IMG/VR virus record: IMGVR_UViG_3300044613_004774
Coordinates: 1 to 38,466 of that record
Direction: 5' to 3' (one strand)
Length of the DNA stretch: 38,466 nucleotides
Origin: a virus
A program made the translations under genes and the position numbers. Positions 20,285 through 37,737 of the stretch are shown piece by piece. Position 1 is the stretch's first letter. Every line of letters begins with the position of its first letter. The notes under the pieces were generated by a model. It had not been told where the DNA came from, made no database searches, and saw only the letters and a list, made by a program, of their open reading frames with translations.

Positions 20285-20956
20285 CTAATCCTCAAATTCG
20301 TGAATAATTTTATAATTCAAATACCTTGCAATTTGCGCTTCGATTTGTGCGCCTTGGCTATTTCTCCAGCCTTTCATTAAGAAAATAGCTTCACAGTTCA
20401 TCAATTCTTTGATGTCTTCTCGCATGTAGGATTCCCAAGATTTATCGTGTTCATGTGGCAAATCAACTGGTGAAATCGGAATGTATGCCTCATTTAAGGA
20501 AACTACGGTTTTTTTGGCATTCTCAAAATCTTGCATGTAATTTTGATTGGAAGAAATAGCACCAGAAATGTAAACCTTAATTCTTCTTTCGTCAATGATT
20601 TCGCCGTACAAACGCGAGCAATCAGCACAAATTTGAAATTTTGATGCAAGGCTTTGATTATAACCTTCCAATGCGTTTTGCATGTTGGCCATGTGGTGGT
20701 AAACAGTAGCGTGGTCAACGCCAAACAATTCTCCCACTTCACGCGAATTCATGCCACAACAAACCATCCATACAATGCCACAAATACGCCACTCTAACAA
20801 TTCATTTTTCCTAGATTTACTTAACAAATCCTCCTTAGTGAAAGGAGATGAAAAAAAGAAATGCTTTGGATGATAATGTTTGCATTTCAGATTGGATTTG
20901 AAGAAAGCTCTGTAATCTTCAATCTTACTTTTCAGGGAAACAGTATTTTTTTTCAT
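20285..20956 (-). CDS. Fusion of DnaA-domain-IV-like HTH with DUF4406 nucleotide-processing domain
   Basis: Residues about 50-95 (CCGMNSREVGELFGVDHATV, then YHHM) follow the DnaA domain IV pattern: helix, small turn, EIGxxFG(G)xDHxTVxHA. Residues about 126-218 match DUF4406/nucleoside 2-deoxyribosyltransferase-like proteins: KVYISGAISSNQNYM at the start, the MNCEAIFLMKGWRNSQGAQI segment with the GW.xS.GAxxE pattern, and RYLNYKII at the end. A Cys pair (CADC, 110-113) lies in the linker. Such HTHs bind DnaA-box-like DNA; DUF4406 proteins are thought to act on nucleotides. The gene starts 2 bases after the 169-aa gene and ends 1 base before the next start. I do not know a characterised protein with this arrangement. 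Confidence 0.75.
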   Translation of the reverse strand: MKKNTVSLKSKIEDYRAFFKSNLKCKHYHPKHFFFSSPFTKEDLLSKSRKNELLEWRICGIVWMVCCGMNSREVGELFGVDHATVYHHMANMQNALEGYNQSLASKFQICADCSRLYGEIIDERRIKVYISGAISSNQNYMQDFENAKKTVVSLNEAYIPISPVDLPHEHDKSWESYMREDIKELMNCEAIFLMKGWRNSQGAQIEAQIARYLNYKIIHEFED

Positions 20957-21473: not shown

Positions 21474-21626
21474 CTATTTTTCGTAAACGTTAACTGATTT
21501 GATAAACGCCTTCACCTTTGAAAGCTCTGATTTGGTGACTTTAGAAGTGAGAACAACAGCATCTTTAACTTTTGACCTGCCCGAATTTTGACGTGCGCCA
21601 CCGCTTGCACCTTTTTTTCCTGCCAT
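21474..21626 (-). CDS. Small basic protein (50 aa)
   Basis: Starts ATG at 21626, overlapping the upstream TAA stop by one base (TAATG), and ends in TAG at 21474-21476. The N-terminus MAGKKGASGGARQNSGRSK has the Gly/Arg-rich GARxNSGR pattern common at the start of phage DNA-binding proteins, followed by a short helical part (TKSELSKVKAFIKSVN). It probably binds DNA, but this is inference from composition. Confidence 0.6.
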   Translation of the reverse strand: MAGKKGASGGARQNSGRSKVKDAVVLTSKVTKSELSKVKAFIKSVNVYEK

Positions 21627-22192
21627 TATATTGGTTTTTCAATTCGTTCAAATTCTATTACCCAAACCCAAGGATTTTCGTTCCATGATTTTTCACCGTT
21701 GATGGATTGCCATAAATCTGAGAACCATTCGCGAACATTTAATAGGTATATACTACCCTCTTTTATCGCGTCTTCCTCCGAAATCTCCTGCAAACGCTCA
21801 ACTCTTACGTTGGTAATTTCCAGCCAAATCCTCGCGGCTGCTTTCGGCATGTAGATTGAAGGTTTCCACTTTTCTCCACTGGCGAAATTTACATGAAAAT
21901 TCGGATGGTCAGCTTTGTAAATGTAGTTAGGCGTTTTATCTGTTGAATTGAAATTCAAATACGTCTCCCGAACCCAAAGCACGTCACCAACTTCACCAAA
22001 TGGAAACTTGTGTAGAGATTCTATTTTTGTGCCTCTTCCAAATGCCACTTGAATGTATTCTGGTAGTTTCCATCCAAAAAAATTTAGCTCTTTTTTCGGA
22101 TGTGGCTTCACCACTCGTCTTGTTTGCGTCTTACGTCCCGCAAGAATCGCTTGCACCATTTCGGTGCTGAATAAAATCGGTCTTTCTTTCAT
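21626..22192 (-). CDS. Phage ASCH-domain-like protein
   Basis: This 188-aa protein is a clear member of a widespread phage family: RPILFSTEMVQAILAGRKTQ then TRRVVK at the start, GDVLWVRETYLNF in the middle, MPKAAARIWLEITNVRVERL then QEISEEDAIKEG, and NENPWVWVIEFERI at the end. These segments match the ASCH-type fold (PUA-like, often RNA or nucleic-acid binding). The molecular function is not established; annotated variously as ASCH or morphogenesis-related protein. Located in the replication-side operon between the 78-aa and 50-aa genes. Confidence 0.8.
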   Translation of the reverse strand: MKERPILFSTEMVQAILAGRKTQTRRVVKPHPKKELNFFGWKLPEYIQVAFGRGTKIESLHKFPFGEVGDVLWVRETYLNFNSTDKTPNYIYKADHPNFHVNFASGEKWKPSIYMPKAAARIWLEITNVRVERLQEISEEDAIKEGSIYLLNVREWFSDLWQSINGEKSWNENPWVWVIEFERIEKPI

Positions 22193-22928: not shown

Positions 22929-23426
22929 TCATCCATTTTTTTTTGAATCAAATTGCCAAGAATTAGAATATTCAACATTTTTAAAAATAGAAGCTATCCC
23001 TGAGTTTTGTTTTAATCTCAAAACTTCATCAGCATCCATGCCTAAATTTTTTGCAATTTCAGCATCAGAACATCCTTGAATAATTAAATCTTTAACTATT
23101 TGACTCATAGCATCAATTTGGTGAGTTCCTTTTGCTCTATTAAATCTAATCGTGCAATTCATTAGCTCACTTATTGGTTCATCCAAAATTATAGCTGGAA
23201 CATAGGGCATTTTTAATTTTTTTGCTAATAAATGTCTATGAAAACCATCCACTATCATGTGATTATATTCATCTTTTTTTATCACAATTAAAGGAAAACA
23301 AAATCCACTTTTTCTTATGGATATTTCCAATAAATCCATTTCTGGCTTCATTACTTTATTCGGATTCCAAGGATTAGGTATTAATGATCTTGTTTCAATT
23401 AATACAGGTATTTTAATTTCTATCAT
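22929..23426 (-). CDS. ParB/sulfiredoxin-fold protein, IbrB-like
   Basis: This 165-aa protein carries a ParB N-terminal-like fold. NPWNPNKVMKPEMDLLEISI (about 18-37), the ligand-binding motif VDGFHRHLLAKKL (59-71; compare the DGxHR motif) and a helical tail with a helix-turn-helix (CSDAEIAKNLGMDADEVLRL, about 118-137) are visible. It overlaps the GNAT gene by 4 bases (ATGA) and follows it in the operon. IbrB proteins occur with IbrA PP-loop proteins. In E. coli the IbrAB pair activates expression of other prophage genes; the chemistry is unknown to me. The ParB fold can carry a CTP or nucleotide-binding activity. Confidence 0.75.
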   Translation of the reverse strand: MIEIKIPVLIETRSLIPNPWNPNKVMKPEMDLLEISIRKSGFCFPLIVIKKDEYNHMIVDGFHRHLLAKKLKMPYVPAIILDEPISELMNCTIRFNRAKGTHQIDAMSQIVKDLIIQGCSDAEIAKNLGMDADEVLRLKQNSGIASIFKNVEYSNSWQFDSKKNG

Positions 23427-23827
23427 AGCTTAAATTTTGTGTACTTACCTCTTTTGCCATTTTCTTTAAATCCATAGTTTTTATAACGTTCTATTTGTAT
23501 GGAATTATCAGTTATAACTCTTATTTCTTTTTGCAATGATTTGGCAAAAGATAGTCTAGCATCAAATAATTGTTTAGAATAACCATTGCCTCTATACTCT
23601 TTTAATACATAAAAGTTATCAAAATATAAATGTGTTTTTTCTTGTATTATAGAGCAAAACCCAATCACATTATTTTGTTGCCTTAATACAAACCAAATAG
23701 CATTTTCCTTAGTATAGAATTGCCAACCACCCATTTCAAAAGCGTATTTTCTGTAGGCAAAATATTCACCCATGATACACCAAAAGTCATTTTCATGATT
23801 TTGATACACTATAATTCTTGATTCCAT
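23423..23827 (-). CDS. GNAT-family N-acetyltransferase
   Basis: 134 aa with the GNAT acetyl-CoA-binding signature: DNFYVLKEYRGNGYSKQLFD (70-89), including the R-G-N-G-Y pyrophosphate loop, and the C-terminal strand-turn NSIQIERYKNYGFKENGKRG seen after helix 4. The substrate is not evident. It lies in the middle of the IbrA/IbrB cassette, overlapping IbrA by 19 bases and IbrB by 4, so it is probably part of that system rather than an isolated enzyme. A DNA- or protein-directed acyltransferase in a modification pathway is possible. Confidence 0.8.
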   Translation of the reverse strand: MESRIIVYQNHENDFWCIMGEYFAYRKYAFEMGGWQFYTKENAIWFVLRQQNNVIGFCSIIQEKTHLYFDNFYVLKEYRGNGYSKQLFDARLSFAKSLQKEIRVITDNSIQIERYKNYGFKENGKRGKYTKFKL

Positions 23828-25068
23828 TTTTCTTGTATTTCTTCAATCCGTTTTGACATTTTATTTGAGTAACCAAAGCCATATTTTTTAAACACAAAAT
23901 CCCTTCTAATTACAGCTCCACATAAAGTTTCGTATGAAAAAAAATACTTGATTGGCATATTGTTTTTAAACGCCTTTTCTTTTGCTTCTTTTTTAGAATC
24001 ACATGAAATAAATTCAAAATCTAAGCCCATTTTATCGCAATACATTTTTCTATGATATTTAAAAACAATTGAAAATTTTTCTTCAAAGTTTTCCGCAACA
24101 TCATTAGGTAATTCAGCTATTAGCAATTTCAAGTACTCTTTCCAAGTAATATTTTTAGGTTTTACTATTTTACCCCTGTTAATATTAGTATGGTTATAGT
24201 TTGCTCCAAAATTCACACCTTCAACTCTTTGCAACATTCTATCAAATGTTGAGGGCTCTATTATTTTCCAAAGCCATAATGATTTTTTTTGCTCCTCACC
24301 AAAAGCACTACATGTTCTCATTTCTGAAATTGGTAAACCAGCCTTAAACATTGAATCATAAACACGGTTATAATCTAAATTATTGTCGGAATAATACTTC
24401 CAAACGTCTTTTGTTAGCCAATCAAATATTGGTAAACATGTCCAAGTTCTATTTGCATTGTTTTTCGTTAAATAAGTGTATTCATTCCTTTTTGTACGAT
24501 GCTTTTCAACAGCAATAGCCATGTGTCTGCCGTATGATTCTTCGGTTCTCATTCCTATGAAATTACAGATAGTTTCAACACCAGAAATATCGCATAGATA
24601 TTCACCGAAACATTCTATTGACCAATATTCAAGCCTATTCAATTCTAAATACTTGGCAAATTCTTCAGGTAAATTATGTTTATTTATTACGTAGTCTTTG
24701 TTAGGCATAGGTCTAACCCAAAAATCCTTTTTTGATTCATCCCAGATCTTAAAATACCTTTGAAAAACACTACTGGCATTATCGTCCAATTCTTCAATAC
24801 ACAACCAAAAAGGCTTAATTCTTGGATCTTCCATTATTGACTCTGTATATCTAGCGGTTTCCTGAAATATAACCTCTAAGTCAGAAAACACACATTTAAC
24901 TGGAAGTCTATTCAGTTCCGTAGCCACCTCTAAAACAAGATTAATCAATACTCCAGAATCTTTACCTCCTGAAAATGAAACATAGAAATCAGGAAAAAAC
25001 AATATCTGTTCTTTAATTCTATTTTTAGCGGCTTGATAGACGTTTAAGTGTTTATTGTAAATTTTCAT
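23809..25068 (-). CDS. PP-loop ATPase / PAPS reductase-like protein, IbrA-like (DUF3440)
   Basis: The 419-aa product has the PP-loop SFSGGKDSGV (31-40), the signature of the adenosine phosphosulfate (PAPS) reductase superfamily. The long DUF3440-type extension has Arg- and Cys-containing segments (ICNFIGMRTEESYGRH, TWTCLPIFDWLTKDVW, EMRTCSAFGEEQKK) typical of IbrA. This superfamily activates a substrate by adenylation, and relatives such as DndC take part in DNA phosphorothioation. Start and end overlap the helicase (4 bases) and GNAT (19 bases) genes. No Fe-S or sulfurtransferase partner gene was seen in the window. Confidence 0.85.
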   Translation of the reverse strand: MKIYNKHLNVYQAAKNRIKEQILFFPDFYVSFSGGKDSGVLINLVLEVATELNRLPVKCVFSDLEVIFQETARYTESIMEDPRIKPFWLCIEELDDNASSVFQRYFKIWDESKKDFWVRPMPNKDYVINKHNLPEEFAKYLELNRLEYWSIECFGEYLCDISGVETICNFIGMRTEESYGRHMAIAVEKHRTKRNEYTYLTKNNANRTWTCLPIFDWLTKDVWKYYSDNNLDYNRVYDSMFKAGLPISEMRTCSAFGEEQKKSLWLWKIIEPSTFDRMLQRVEGVNFGANYNHTNINRGKIVKPKNITWKEYLKLLIAELPNDVAENFEEKFSIVFKYHRKMYCDKMGLDFEFISCDSKKEAKEKAFKNNMPIKYFFSYETLCGAVIRRDFVFKKYGFGYSNKMSKRIEEIQEKWNQEL

Positions 25069-26291
25069 AACACTTCTTTTAACTGATTTTTACTTACTTT
25101 TTTGAAATACTCCAAAGCTGTTTGTTTGGTGTCGTTGTTTTTTCGGATTAGATTATCCAGTGGAATTTTGGCATCCAAATAATAGTGGTAGCAATTTCTT
25201 TTTTGGCCTGTCCGGAAAATTCTTTTTTGATATTGATCTACATCCATCCAATTCCAAGTTTTATCAAATTCAACCGTCACATTGAATTGATTTTGTAAAT
25301 TGATGGACATTGAATCTGATTGCAATGAAAATACATTGGCATTGTATATTTCCGATAAAATAAAACATCTGCTATCCACAAATTTGGTATAAACAGCAAC
25401 ATTTTCAACGCCATGTTTCTGAATGATTTTTTTGAGCAAAACAATCTTTTCCTGACAACAAGAATAGCTGTGTTGCATTTTCTGCACCATCATTAAAAAA
25501 ATGTTGTTGTTGTATTCTTCCAATGATTCCTCACAAAGAAAATGCTCCTTGATTGCGGTGTATTCCTTCTTGTATTCATCCTCTACCTCATAACTCATTC
25601 GTATGTGCTGCGCTTCAATATTTAGATTCAATTCAGCTTCATAGATGAAAGGTCGAATTAAATGATAGAGGTAATCAATGTTTTCGTAACCAATAACGAA
25701 TTCTTTCATCACTCTTCCACCGCATTTTATTCTAATTTTCTCACAAAAAGTATTTTCAAATTCGGCATAATTCATTTTCAGAATTAAAGGTGAAAGAAAT
25801 TCCATTTGGGACCACAAATCCATTAGATTTCTACTGAATGGCGTGCCGTTCAAAATCAACTTGTAGGTTGATAACTTTCCGAATTCTAGTATTCTTTGTG
25901 TTCGCTTTGCATCAGAATTTTTGATTAATAATGATTCATCAACTACAATAAATGGATTCTTTGCAGCTTGTAATTTCTTTGTCAATTCCAAATAAACGCG
26001 GTCACTCATTCCAACAGATTGAACGCCAACGAAATCAATATTTTCAAAATGATGCCATTTTTCAACTTCTTTTTTTATTCCTGAAGAAGCAATCTTTGGA
26101 TTTACAGAACGAAACGGAGCTAGCCACAACACGTAATCAGGATGAACTTGTTTTATTAATTCAACTGCTGTTCGTGTTTTGCCTGTTCCTGGTGATTTAA
26201 AAAGCGCACCCACTTTTTTTGTTTGCAAGTGGGAAATTGCGCCAGTTTGATTATTTAATAAGGCTTTCATCTGGTGCTTGATTTTGGTCAA
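25065..26291 (-). CDS. SNF2-like superfamily 2 helicase/ATPase
   Basis: 408 aa with helicase motifs in order: Walker A FKSPGTGKTRTAVELI (31-46), DESLLIK motif II (about 118), LNGTPFSRNLMDLW motif III (about 147-160), and motif VI QYQKRIFRTGQKRNC (about 355-369). This is the Snf2/phage-type DNA translocase family, common in phage replication modules. It overlaps the 109-aa gene start by about 41 bases at its N-terminus; the ATG at 26270 (MKALLNNQTG) is the alternative start with less overlap. It likely remodels or unwinds DNA in replication or modification. Confidence 0.85.
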   Translation of the reverse strand: MTKIKHQMKALLNNQTGAISHLQTKKVGALFKSPGTGKTRTAVELIKQVHPDYVLWLAPFRSVNPKIASSGIKKEVEKWHHFENIDFVGVQSVGMSDRVYLELTKKLQAAKNPFIVVDESLLIKNSDAKRTQRILEFGKLSTYKLILNGTPFSRNLMDLWSQMEFLSPLILKMNYAEFENTFCEKIRIKCGGRVMKEFVIGYENIDYLYHLIRPFIYEAELNLNIEAQHIRMSYEVEDEYKKEYTAIKEHFLCEESLEEYNNNIFLMMVQKMQHSYSCCQEKIVLLKKIIQKHGVENVAVYTKFVDSRCFILSEIYNANVFSLQSDSMSINLQNQFNVTVEFDKTWNWMDVDQYQKRIFRTGQKRNCYHYYLDAKIPLDNLIRKNNDTKQTALEYFKKVSKNQLKEVL

Positions 26292-26580
26292 ATTCTACCT
26301 TTTTCGGCTTGTGATGTTCTACCACAATATTTGGTTCAATTCTGCCTTTTTCTGGATTCCACCAACCTACTTTTTTGGTAGAGTGCTGTATATCTTTTTG
26401 ATCCATTATCCAAGCAGAAATCCAATAAGCATCTGATTTTTGAACATCGTAATCTTGTGCGAAAACTTGTGATTTTGGAATGATTGCCTCTGAACCATCA
26501 AAAGCAGTTGCTTTATAAGCCTTGTCAGATATACTAACAAGGCTTTGAAGTCTTACCGAATAACACTTAGTTTTTTTCAT
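26251..26580 (-). CDS. Unknown phage protein (109 aa)
   Basis: Begins MKKTKCYSVRLQSLVSISD. A compact alpha/beta protein with YKATAFDGSEAIIPKSQVF and SDAYWISAWIMDQKDI segments that I recall from Bacteroidota phage proteins, though no function is known. Overlaps the preceding 98-aa gene by 14 bases and the helicase by about 20-40 bases, so it belongs to that operon. Confidence 0.65.
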   Translation of the reverse strand: MKKTKCYSVRLQSLVSISDKAYKATAFDGSEAIIPKSQVFAQDYDVQKSDAYWISAWIMDQKDIQHSTKKVGWWNPEKGRIEPNIVVEHHKPKKVEFDQNQAPDESLIK

Positions 26581-36692: not shown

Positions 36693-37460
36693 TTAGCCAC
36701 AATACGAAGAAAGCCTCCGAACTGCAACATCGTAATATTGTTTTTCCTTTTCAATGCCAATTGATTTACGATTTAATTTTAAACAAGCAAGGTTTGTTGT
36801 GCCAGAACCCATTGTGTTATCTAAAACCATATCACCTTCGTTTGTGTAGGTTTTTACAAGCATTTCTAATAATCCAATCGGTTTTTCAGTTGGGTGTGTT
36901 TTGTTTTGTTGCCTTCCAATCGGTTCATAGAATATTGTAGTGGGGTATCTATAACCGTCATTTACAATCGTACTATCCTCGTGCTTACCATAATTCCCCC
37001 TGCAAGTTTCTGATTTACTTGTTCTCGTATAAGCATCGCCCTTTGTAAATTGAGGGTTATAGGTTGTTTTCTTTTTGGCAAAAATCAAAATATTGTCGTG
37101 TTTTCTTAATGGCATTATTTTAGCGTTTAAGTGCCCACTTGCTCTGCCTTTATCCCAAATTATTTCATACTTAAACCATTTTTTGTTTGAGTATATTAAA
37201 TCAGCTGTAAATGGTTGGTTGCCAAAAAGAATGATACAGCCACTATCTTTTAAAACTCTTTTGTATTCAATCCAAAGTTTGTCCAATGGCAAAACACTAT
37301 CCCATTTGTTTTGAGTAGTTCCATAAGGCAAATCGCAAATAATAGCATCTATACTCTTATCCTCAATAAAAGGAAAAACATCAAAGCAATCAGCATTAAC
37401 CAACGTACTGTGGCTAACACGTGCTATATACCATTTGGGGTTTTGTGGTAAATTCAACAT
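36693..37460 (-). CDS. DNA adenine methyltransferase, orphan
   Basis: The start MLNLPQNPKWYIA (37460, 255 aa) is preferred; upstream residues come from a region overlapping the attC-like repeat and the 66-aa gene. Motif IV DLPYGTTQNKWD (43-54) and motif I DNTMGSGTTN (about 218-227) show a beta-class-like N6-adenine or N4-cytosine enzyme, with motif order IV before I. The second residue of DPPY is Leu here (DLPY), common in phage members. No restriction partner is present in the window. Likely masks phage DNA from host restriction or affects regulation. Confidence 0.85.
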   Translation of the reverse strand: MLNLPQNPKWYIARVSHSTLVNADCFDVFPFIEDKSIDAIICDLPYGTTQNKWDSVLPLDKLWIEYKRVLKDSGCIILFGNQPFTADLIYSNKKWFKYEIIWDKGRASGHLNAKIMPLRKHDNILIFAKKKTTYNPQFTKGDAYTRTSKSETCRGNYGKHEDSTIVNDGYRYPTTIFYEPIGRQQNKTHPTEKPIGLLEMLVKTYTNEGDMVLDNTMGSGTTNLACLKLNRKSIGIEKEKQYYDVAVRRLSSYCG

Positions 37461-37536
37461 TTGTTCTCGTTTTAAAGTTATTAATAAATTGATAGAATGG
37501 TGCTTCGTAATCCCAAACGGTACATAGCACCATACG

Positions 37537-37737
37537 TTATAGGGCATTTGGATTGAACAACCTGATAGCCTTTAACGGGGCTTTCATTGTTAAATCACTC
37601 ATTACATCATCTACATCATTTAAGACAGTATGATGAACTGTGCCTTTTAACTTCATTGATATTTTTACCCTTGCATCCATCAATTCTTTGTAGAGCAATT
37701 CGTATAGTTCGGTTTCTTTTTTCTTACTTATTTTCAT
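37537..37737 (-). CDS. Small unknown cassette-like protein (66 aa)
   Basis: Begins MKISKKKETELYELLYKELM and ends FNPNAL. The stop codon lies inside GCCCTATAAC, the same 10-mer that ends the attC-like element beside it. No recognised domain. It sits between two copies of the repeat, in the manner of a gene cassette, and has no promoter of its own. Confidence 0.6.
   Translation of the reverse strand: MKISKKKETELYELLYKELMDARVKISMKLKGTVHHTVLNDVDDVMSDLTMKAPLKAIRLFNPNAL

Follow-up and report, generated by a model that had tools for sequence, protein, structure and literature searches.

A recurring helicase-IbrA-GNAT-IbrB module in phages, possibly a modular system for DNA modification

What might a SNF2-type helicase, a PAPS-reductase-like enzyme, an acyltransferase-like protein and a ParB-like protein do together in one phage operon? 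The window analysed here, a virus record of 38,466 bases that also encodes terminase, protease, tail, primase and integrase-like genes, raises this question with four minus-strand genes (22929-26291), in the order SNF2 helicase, IbrA, GNAT and IbrB (Table 1). Phage genes of the PAPS-reductase-like kind are usually assigned to sulfur metabolism or labelled "auxiliary metabolic genes", and published phage annotations treat IbrA/IbrB or "PAPS reductase" as auxiliary metabolic or regulatory. For IbrAB a single function has been reported, going by the title of Sandt 2002 as cited in PMC10434257: the pair activates eib genes of a prophage in E. coli. In E. coli K-12 the pair ybdNM resembles IbrAB and belongs to a citR-linked operon that has neither helicase nor GNAT (PMC9068703).

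An earlier note on this DNA had described an overlapping IbrA-GNAT-IbrB cassette in one operon with the helicase, and the open reading frames bear this out: helicase and IbrA overlap by 4 bases, IbrA and GNAT by 19, and GNAT and IbrB by 4 (the last two overlaps were read in the DNA). The PHROG assignments of the operon genes are consistent with their Pfam-type families, and the helicase scores 46.9 bits against SNF2-rel_dom (cut-off 24.9), with the Walker A motif SPGTGKT as well as the DES and QKRIFRTGQ motifs present. The gene for a 109-aa protein overlaps the start of the helicase gene; relatives occur in eleven of the compared loci (L014, L015, L022, L069, L070, L076, L095, L118, L163, L175 and L244). 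It is a frequent upstream neighbour of the helicase and possibly accessory to the module. Downstream of the operon, and in the same direction, lies a gene for an ASCH-domain protein, and a further gene of the window joins a DnaA-C-like helix-turn-helix to a DUF4406 (deoxyribosyltransferase-like) domain. As neither has relatives within IbrAB loci, both were left out of the module. A DNA methyltransferase is encoded elsewhere in the same phage.

Table 1. Features of the window and of compared loci (L-numbers denote loci compared in the analysis)
Feature	Position	Strand	Matches and remarks
SNF2-type DNA helicase/translocase, 408 aa	25065..26291	-	First module gene, TTG start; SNF2-rel_dom 2.5e-12; phrog_62 1.5e-48
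IbrA-like PP-loop ATPase, 419 aa	23809..25068	-	PAPS_reduct 2.2e-16 and DUF3440 7.3e-25; phrog_2302 8.6e-81
GNAT-fold acyltransferase-like protein, 134 aa	23423..23827	-	IbrAB-dedicated subfamily; Acetyltransf_7 8.4e-12
IbrB-like ParB/sulfiredoxin-fold protein, 165 aa	22929..23426	-	ParB_N 6e-07; phrog_2159 1.2e-50
109-aa protein, overlaps helicase start	26251..26580	-	phrog_5809 8.1e-41
ASCH-domain protein	21626-22192		phrog_874
DnaA-C-like helix-turn-helix joined to DUF4406	20285-20956		
DNA methyltransferase	36693-37547		phrog_67
Ectoine-synthase-family cupins	L003:5326-5718, L004:5290-6189, L113:4542-4916, L122:4574-4951		Between IbrA and IbrB or fused to IbrB; single IbrA clade
Methyltransferase-like proteins in the slot	L125:4414-4962, L156:931-1494		Methyltransf_12
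Glycosyltransferase-like protein in the slot	L129:4219-4845		phrog_854 glucosyltransferase 1.5e-08
Family 3, about 140 aa	L006:3567-3992, L029:2269-2697, L074:4592-4987		NRxAWxGQA motif; often fused to IbrB; 86 loci in all

IbrA and IbrB are companions far beyond this phage. In a tblastn search of 50,697 phage records IbrA was found in 215 and IbrB in 218, in nearly identical genera, and both occur together in phages of Flavobacterium, Mycobacterium, Streptococcus, Arthrobacter, Lactobacillus and others. Profile scans for IbrA and IbrB, with loci drawn from viral contigs as well as the genomes of bacteria and archaea, yielded 218 non-redundant loci with both genes. Two IbrAB pairs (L205, L230) are located on contigs assigned to Heimdallarchaeota, and in the cultured Flavobacterium phage FCL-2 (L248) the module has the order helicase-IbrB-IbrA, with every gene annotated as "hypothetical". 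Among other cultured phages, Streptococcus thermophilus phage CHPC1230 has IbrA-IbrB, and mycobacteriophage Gaia has IbrA and a cupin-IbrB.

The coupling of the cassette to the helicase, also claimed in the earlier note, can be seen from both sides. A SNF2 helicase is present in 66 of the 218 loci, 58 times directly upstream of the module and on the same strand. Conversely, when only the helicase was used for scanning, IbrA was located downstream of 78 of the 80 helicases most similar to that of the window, usually with a 4-base overlap and in the order H-A-B or H-B-A (H, helicase; A, IbrA; B, IbrB); since module helicases had served as seeds for the profile, this fraction describes the subfamily and not all phage SNF2 helicases. 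Of the two exceptions, one sequence ends after the helicase (L335) and the other has no IbrA within 1.3 kb (L333). Between the window and L167, IbrA is 67% identical and the helicase only about 30%, a pattern that would fit a swap of the helicase next to a conserved IbrA-GNAT-IbrB unit. On these identities, the cassette could lie next to a helicase used in replication, and this counts against a role in modification.

The GNAT is equally tied to the pair. Members of its subfamily occur in 27 of the 218 loci, each time directly next to IbrA or IbrB, and no other copies were detected in about 2 Mb of flanking sequence; a distinct gap in score separates module GNATs (E <=5e-29) from the other GNATs of the same genomes (>=7.6e-13). 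In blind scans with the GNAT only, each covering 369-395 genomes of one class (the first two scans share genomes), all four new matches at E<=1e-15 (L251, L252, L253, L256) adjoin both IbrA and IbrB, and three weaker matches near 1e-13, without the N-terminal motif, have no IbrA next to them. The possibility raised in the earlier note that the GNAT is never conserved beside IbrAB in relatives is thus at odds with 27 loci and every confident blind match, which also rule out a chance neighbour. The exact order H-A-G-B (G, GNAT) recurs in L008, L009, L025, L035, L108, L167 and L262, the last being the closest to the window (helicase 72%, GNAT 64%, IbrA 74% and IbrB 80% identical), and in L103 and L168 with a gap of 249 or 720 bases after the helicase. 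The order H-G-A-B is found in L088, L098, L175, L178, L306, L322 and L336, and in L203 as a fusion, where the C-terminus of the helicase and the GNAT share one open frame (L203:1-636) directly before IbrA. The gene order of the window is far above chance expectation.

With dN/dS values of 0.11-0.19, similar to those of IbrA and IbrB and obtained at high dS, the GNAT is, as judged from its substitutions, under purifying selection. In a tree built from 149 IbrA rows the GNAT label needs 14 changes, which speaks for repeated gain and loss, and the cupin label one; in the clade of the window (99% SH-aLRT) all six rows have the GNAT. Most IbrAB loci have no GNAT, so it is not essential to the core. 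That the four genes form one conserved, recurring module across many unrelated phages and prophages is well supported by these comparisons.

What takes the place of the GNAT elsewhere? The slot between or beside IbrA and IbrB may hold the GNAT, a cupin of the ectoine synthase family (Ectoine_synth, PF06339, to 2.9e-45; in 27 of the 218 loci and often fused to IbrB), a methyltransferase-like or glycosyltransferase-like gene, or a member of an undescribed protein family that we call family 3, the tested member of which has no Pfam match. Neither a family-3 protein nor a cupin was found in the window. Among the 218 loci GNAT and cupin are never together, where 3.3 joint loci would be expected, and helicase and family 3 meet in a single locus, where 26 would be expected; as part of this pattern follows phylogeny, these statistics are descriptive. 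A sequence of GNAT and then cupin steps is unsupported because the two never occur in one locus. The multi-step chemistry proposed in the earlier note nevertheless gains indirect support, since the slot holds alternative tailoring-type enzymes.

Which reaction might the core carry out? IbrA scores 60.8 bits against PAPS_reduct (cut-off 22.5) and 88.2 bits against DUF3440 (cut-off 25) and has the PP-loop SFSGGKDS. The solved folds nearest to its structure model (pLDDT 91) are the PAPS domain of FAD synthase and APS/PAPS reductases (Z 14-16), with further matches to TilS, LarE and NAD and GMP synthetases. Across 54 IbrA sequences the PP-loop is invariant, together with many Trp, Arg and Asp residues, but no Cys is; at the two positions where Cys is most common it occurs in 43 and 44 of the 54, and the window has F393 at the second. 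PAPS reduction is therefore unlikely, as is also suggested by a score of 40 bits against NCBIfam cysH, far under its cut-off of 165, and sulfur transfer is doubtful, though this is less strongly argued. Adenylation followed by displacement is thus left as the likeliest chemistry of IbrA, as far as its conserved residues can tell.

The same residues bear on a phosphorothioation-like sulfur mark on DNA, for which IbrA would be the equivalent of DndC or SspD, the helicase the ATPase and IbrB the DNA recogniser, with host IscS as sulfur donor. The phosphorothioation core consists of a PAPS-reductase-like enzyme, an ATPase and a DNA-recognising protein, a three-part design that the module shares with Dnd/Ssp (PMC12707154), and IbrA weakly matches the DndC (3.6e-8; 32.7 bits against an equivalog cut-off of 290) and BrxP (1.3e-8) models. 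However, such a mark is very unlikely given that IbrA has no invariant Cys, that even the second common one is missing in the window, that the operon contains no desulfurase, and that GNAT, cupin and methyltransferase partners are ill-suited to a sulfur mark on the backbone.

IbrB matches ParB_N with 29.9 bits (cut-off 26.3), conserves DGFHR and TIRxNRAxGxH, and has a predicted helix-turn-helix region at its C-terminus (about residues 107-140). ParB-fold proteins recur in DNA-modification systems, e.g. DndB and DpdB (PMC12839542), as well as in CmoX loci (PMC12783734). The proposals of the earlier note that the ParB-like protein selects DNA sites, and that the outcome would be a modified DNA or nucleotide or an anti-restriction function, are plausible. 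A weak match of IbrB to SerK (5e-4), together with DGFHR, would also fit a target other than DNA: IbrA may adenylate a metabolite or RNA, a SerK-like IbrB may phosphorylate it, and the GNAT or an EctC-like enzyme may finish a product that blocks host defence or signalling. The PP-loop relatives named above, which include TilS with its tRNA substrate, FAD synthase, NAD and GMP synthetases and LarE, agree with a small-molecule, nucleotide or tRNA target, and so do the small-molecule substrates of EctC-type cupins. Nevertheless, the large number of modules with a SNF2 DNA motor of their own speaks for DNA, and the helix-turn-helix-like tail of IbrB suggests DNA binding, so that we regard this alternative as unlikely.

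The same tail could also belong to a regulator. IbrB would then bind promoters via its ParB and helix-turn-helix parts, IbrA would serve as ATP-using co-activator, the helicase would remodel DNA or RNA polymerase, of which SNF2-type proteins are capable, and the GNAT would acetylate a partner and thereby tune activity. In annotations and in the literature IbrAB are termed co-activators of prophage gene expression, and ybdNM of E. coli is part of a regulatory operon. However, the slot genes found elsewhere (ectoine-synthase-like cupin, methyltransferase, glycosyltransferase-like) have no obvious use for a regulator, IbrA conserves the full signature of a PP-loop enzyme, and a promoter scan of the region gave no excess over shuffled sequence. 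Thus, we consider regulation improbable as the function of the module; still, gene activation, just like the modification of RNA or a small molecule, stays a serious rival to DNA modification.

The window GNAT is a member of the GNAT superfamily by its Pfam match (8.4e-12) and by its fold: its structure model (pLDDT 95) has generic GNATs as neighbours, including CoA-bound ones. It keeps the motif YRGNGYSKQL, in which R-G-N-G-Y-S corresponds to the acetyl-CoA motif R/Q-x-x-G-x-G/A except for the Ser at the last position. In many relatives, however, the CoA-binding motif is lost or unclean, so that the chemistry may vary and the protein may not be an acyltransferase everywhere. Group transfer by the GNAT, as put forward in the earlier note, is therefore compatible with the window copy, whereas acyl transfer is not secure for the family as a whole. 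An ectoine-type GNAT was rejected because the window protein does not match the EctA model, and none of 26 relatives matches phrog_1384, which is named Mom-like (PMC11318856).

Our preferred reading is a DNA-hypermodification module with helicase, IbrA and IbrB as core and the GNAT as tailoring enzyme. Such a system is the best fit for the combination of DNA motor, putative adenylating enzyme, ParB-fold protein and exchangeable tailoring enzyme, and the parallel in design to the phosphorothioation core and the recurrence of ParB-fold proteins in DNA-modification loci speak for it too. It is plausible, if somewhat short of probable, that the module writes a chemical mark on phage DNA, most likely protecting the genome from host defences. 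IbrB would bind the DNA and hold a nucleotide in its ParB/Srx-fold domain; the SNF2 protein would spend ATP on moving along the DNA or deforming it, exposing a base; the PP-loop of IbrA would adenylate the base or a small building block, and a nucleophile would displace AMP; finally, the GNAT would acylate the group so installed or decorate it in another way. Sister modules, with an ectoine-synthase-like cupin, methyltransferase or glycosyltransferase-like protein instead of the GNAT, would produce a different final mark. A more specific version, which we hold possible with less confidence, is that of a previously undescribed modular system in which the SNF2 translocase, the cysteine-free IbrA and IbrB install a core mark that the swappable tailoring enzyme diversifies, evading host defences. 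We found no description of a helicase-IbrA-GNAT-IbrB module in the literature searched, a search with most subscription journals and preprints outside its scope, and an earlier description is possible.

A modification or product might also be aimed at competing phages, i.e. a temperate phage might protect its host by superinfection exclusion or defence. The window phage has an integrase-like gene, and SNF2 helicases accompany PAPS-reductase-like proteins in defence systems (PADLOC hits). However, the operon contains no nuclease or other effector, and the module is also present in phages reported without integration genes, e.g. FCL-2 (PMC4541368), which makes host protection highly improbable. 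Under the preferred reading of DNA modification, the module would provide new chemistry for phage counter-defence and an explanation for the role of IbrAB. On the evidence of the compared loci, a large group of phage PAPS-reductase-like genes is part not of sulfur metabolism but of a dedicated module that is linked to a DNA motor and has exchangeable partner enzymes. Cultured phages with the core, e.g. Flavobacterium phage FCL-2 and Streptococcus thermophilus phage CHPC1230, allow a direct test.

Several known systems resemble the module in part. The eib activators IbrA/IbrB of ECOR-9 and YbdN/YbdM of E. coli belong to the same two families (PAPS_reduct plus DUF3440, and ParB-like) and are encoded by adjacent genes, but neither helicase nor GNAT is reported there, and their reported role is gene activation. 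Dnd, Ssp and BREX type 4 combine a PAPS-reductase-like PP-loop enzyme, an ATPase and a DNA-recognising protein, DndB being a member of the ParB superfamily; in contrast, the window module has a SNF2 ATPase and belongs to a group with GNAT or cupin tailoring genes, and it has no conserved Cys set and no desulfurase. The parallel to the phosphorothioation machinery would thus be a likeness of design and not membership. The Dpd system, which places 7-deazaguanine in DNA, uses the ParB-like ATPase DpdB for base modification and has a SNF2-type helicase, DpdE (PADLOC hits), whereas the window operon contains no TGT/DpdA or preQ0 genes and its PP-loop enzyme is of another family.

Mom of phage Mu is a GNAT-fold enzyme that modifies phage DNA. 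The window protein shares this fold; none of the 26 relatives matches phrog_1384, and the Mu system has neither IbrAB nor a helicase partner. In the ectoine pathway EctA is a GNAT and EctC a cupin. Although the window GNAT does not match EctA, EctB was not seen and GNAT and cupin never occur in one module among the 218 loci, the likeness lies in the slot of the IbrAB module, which holds either a GNAT or a cupin of the EctC family.
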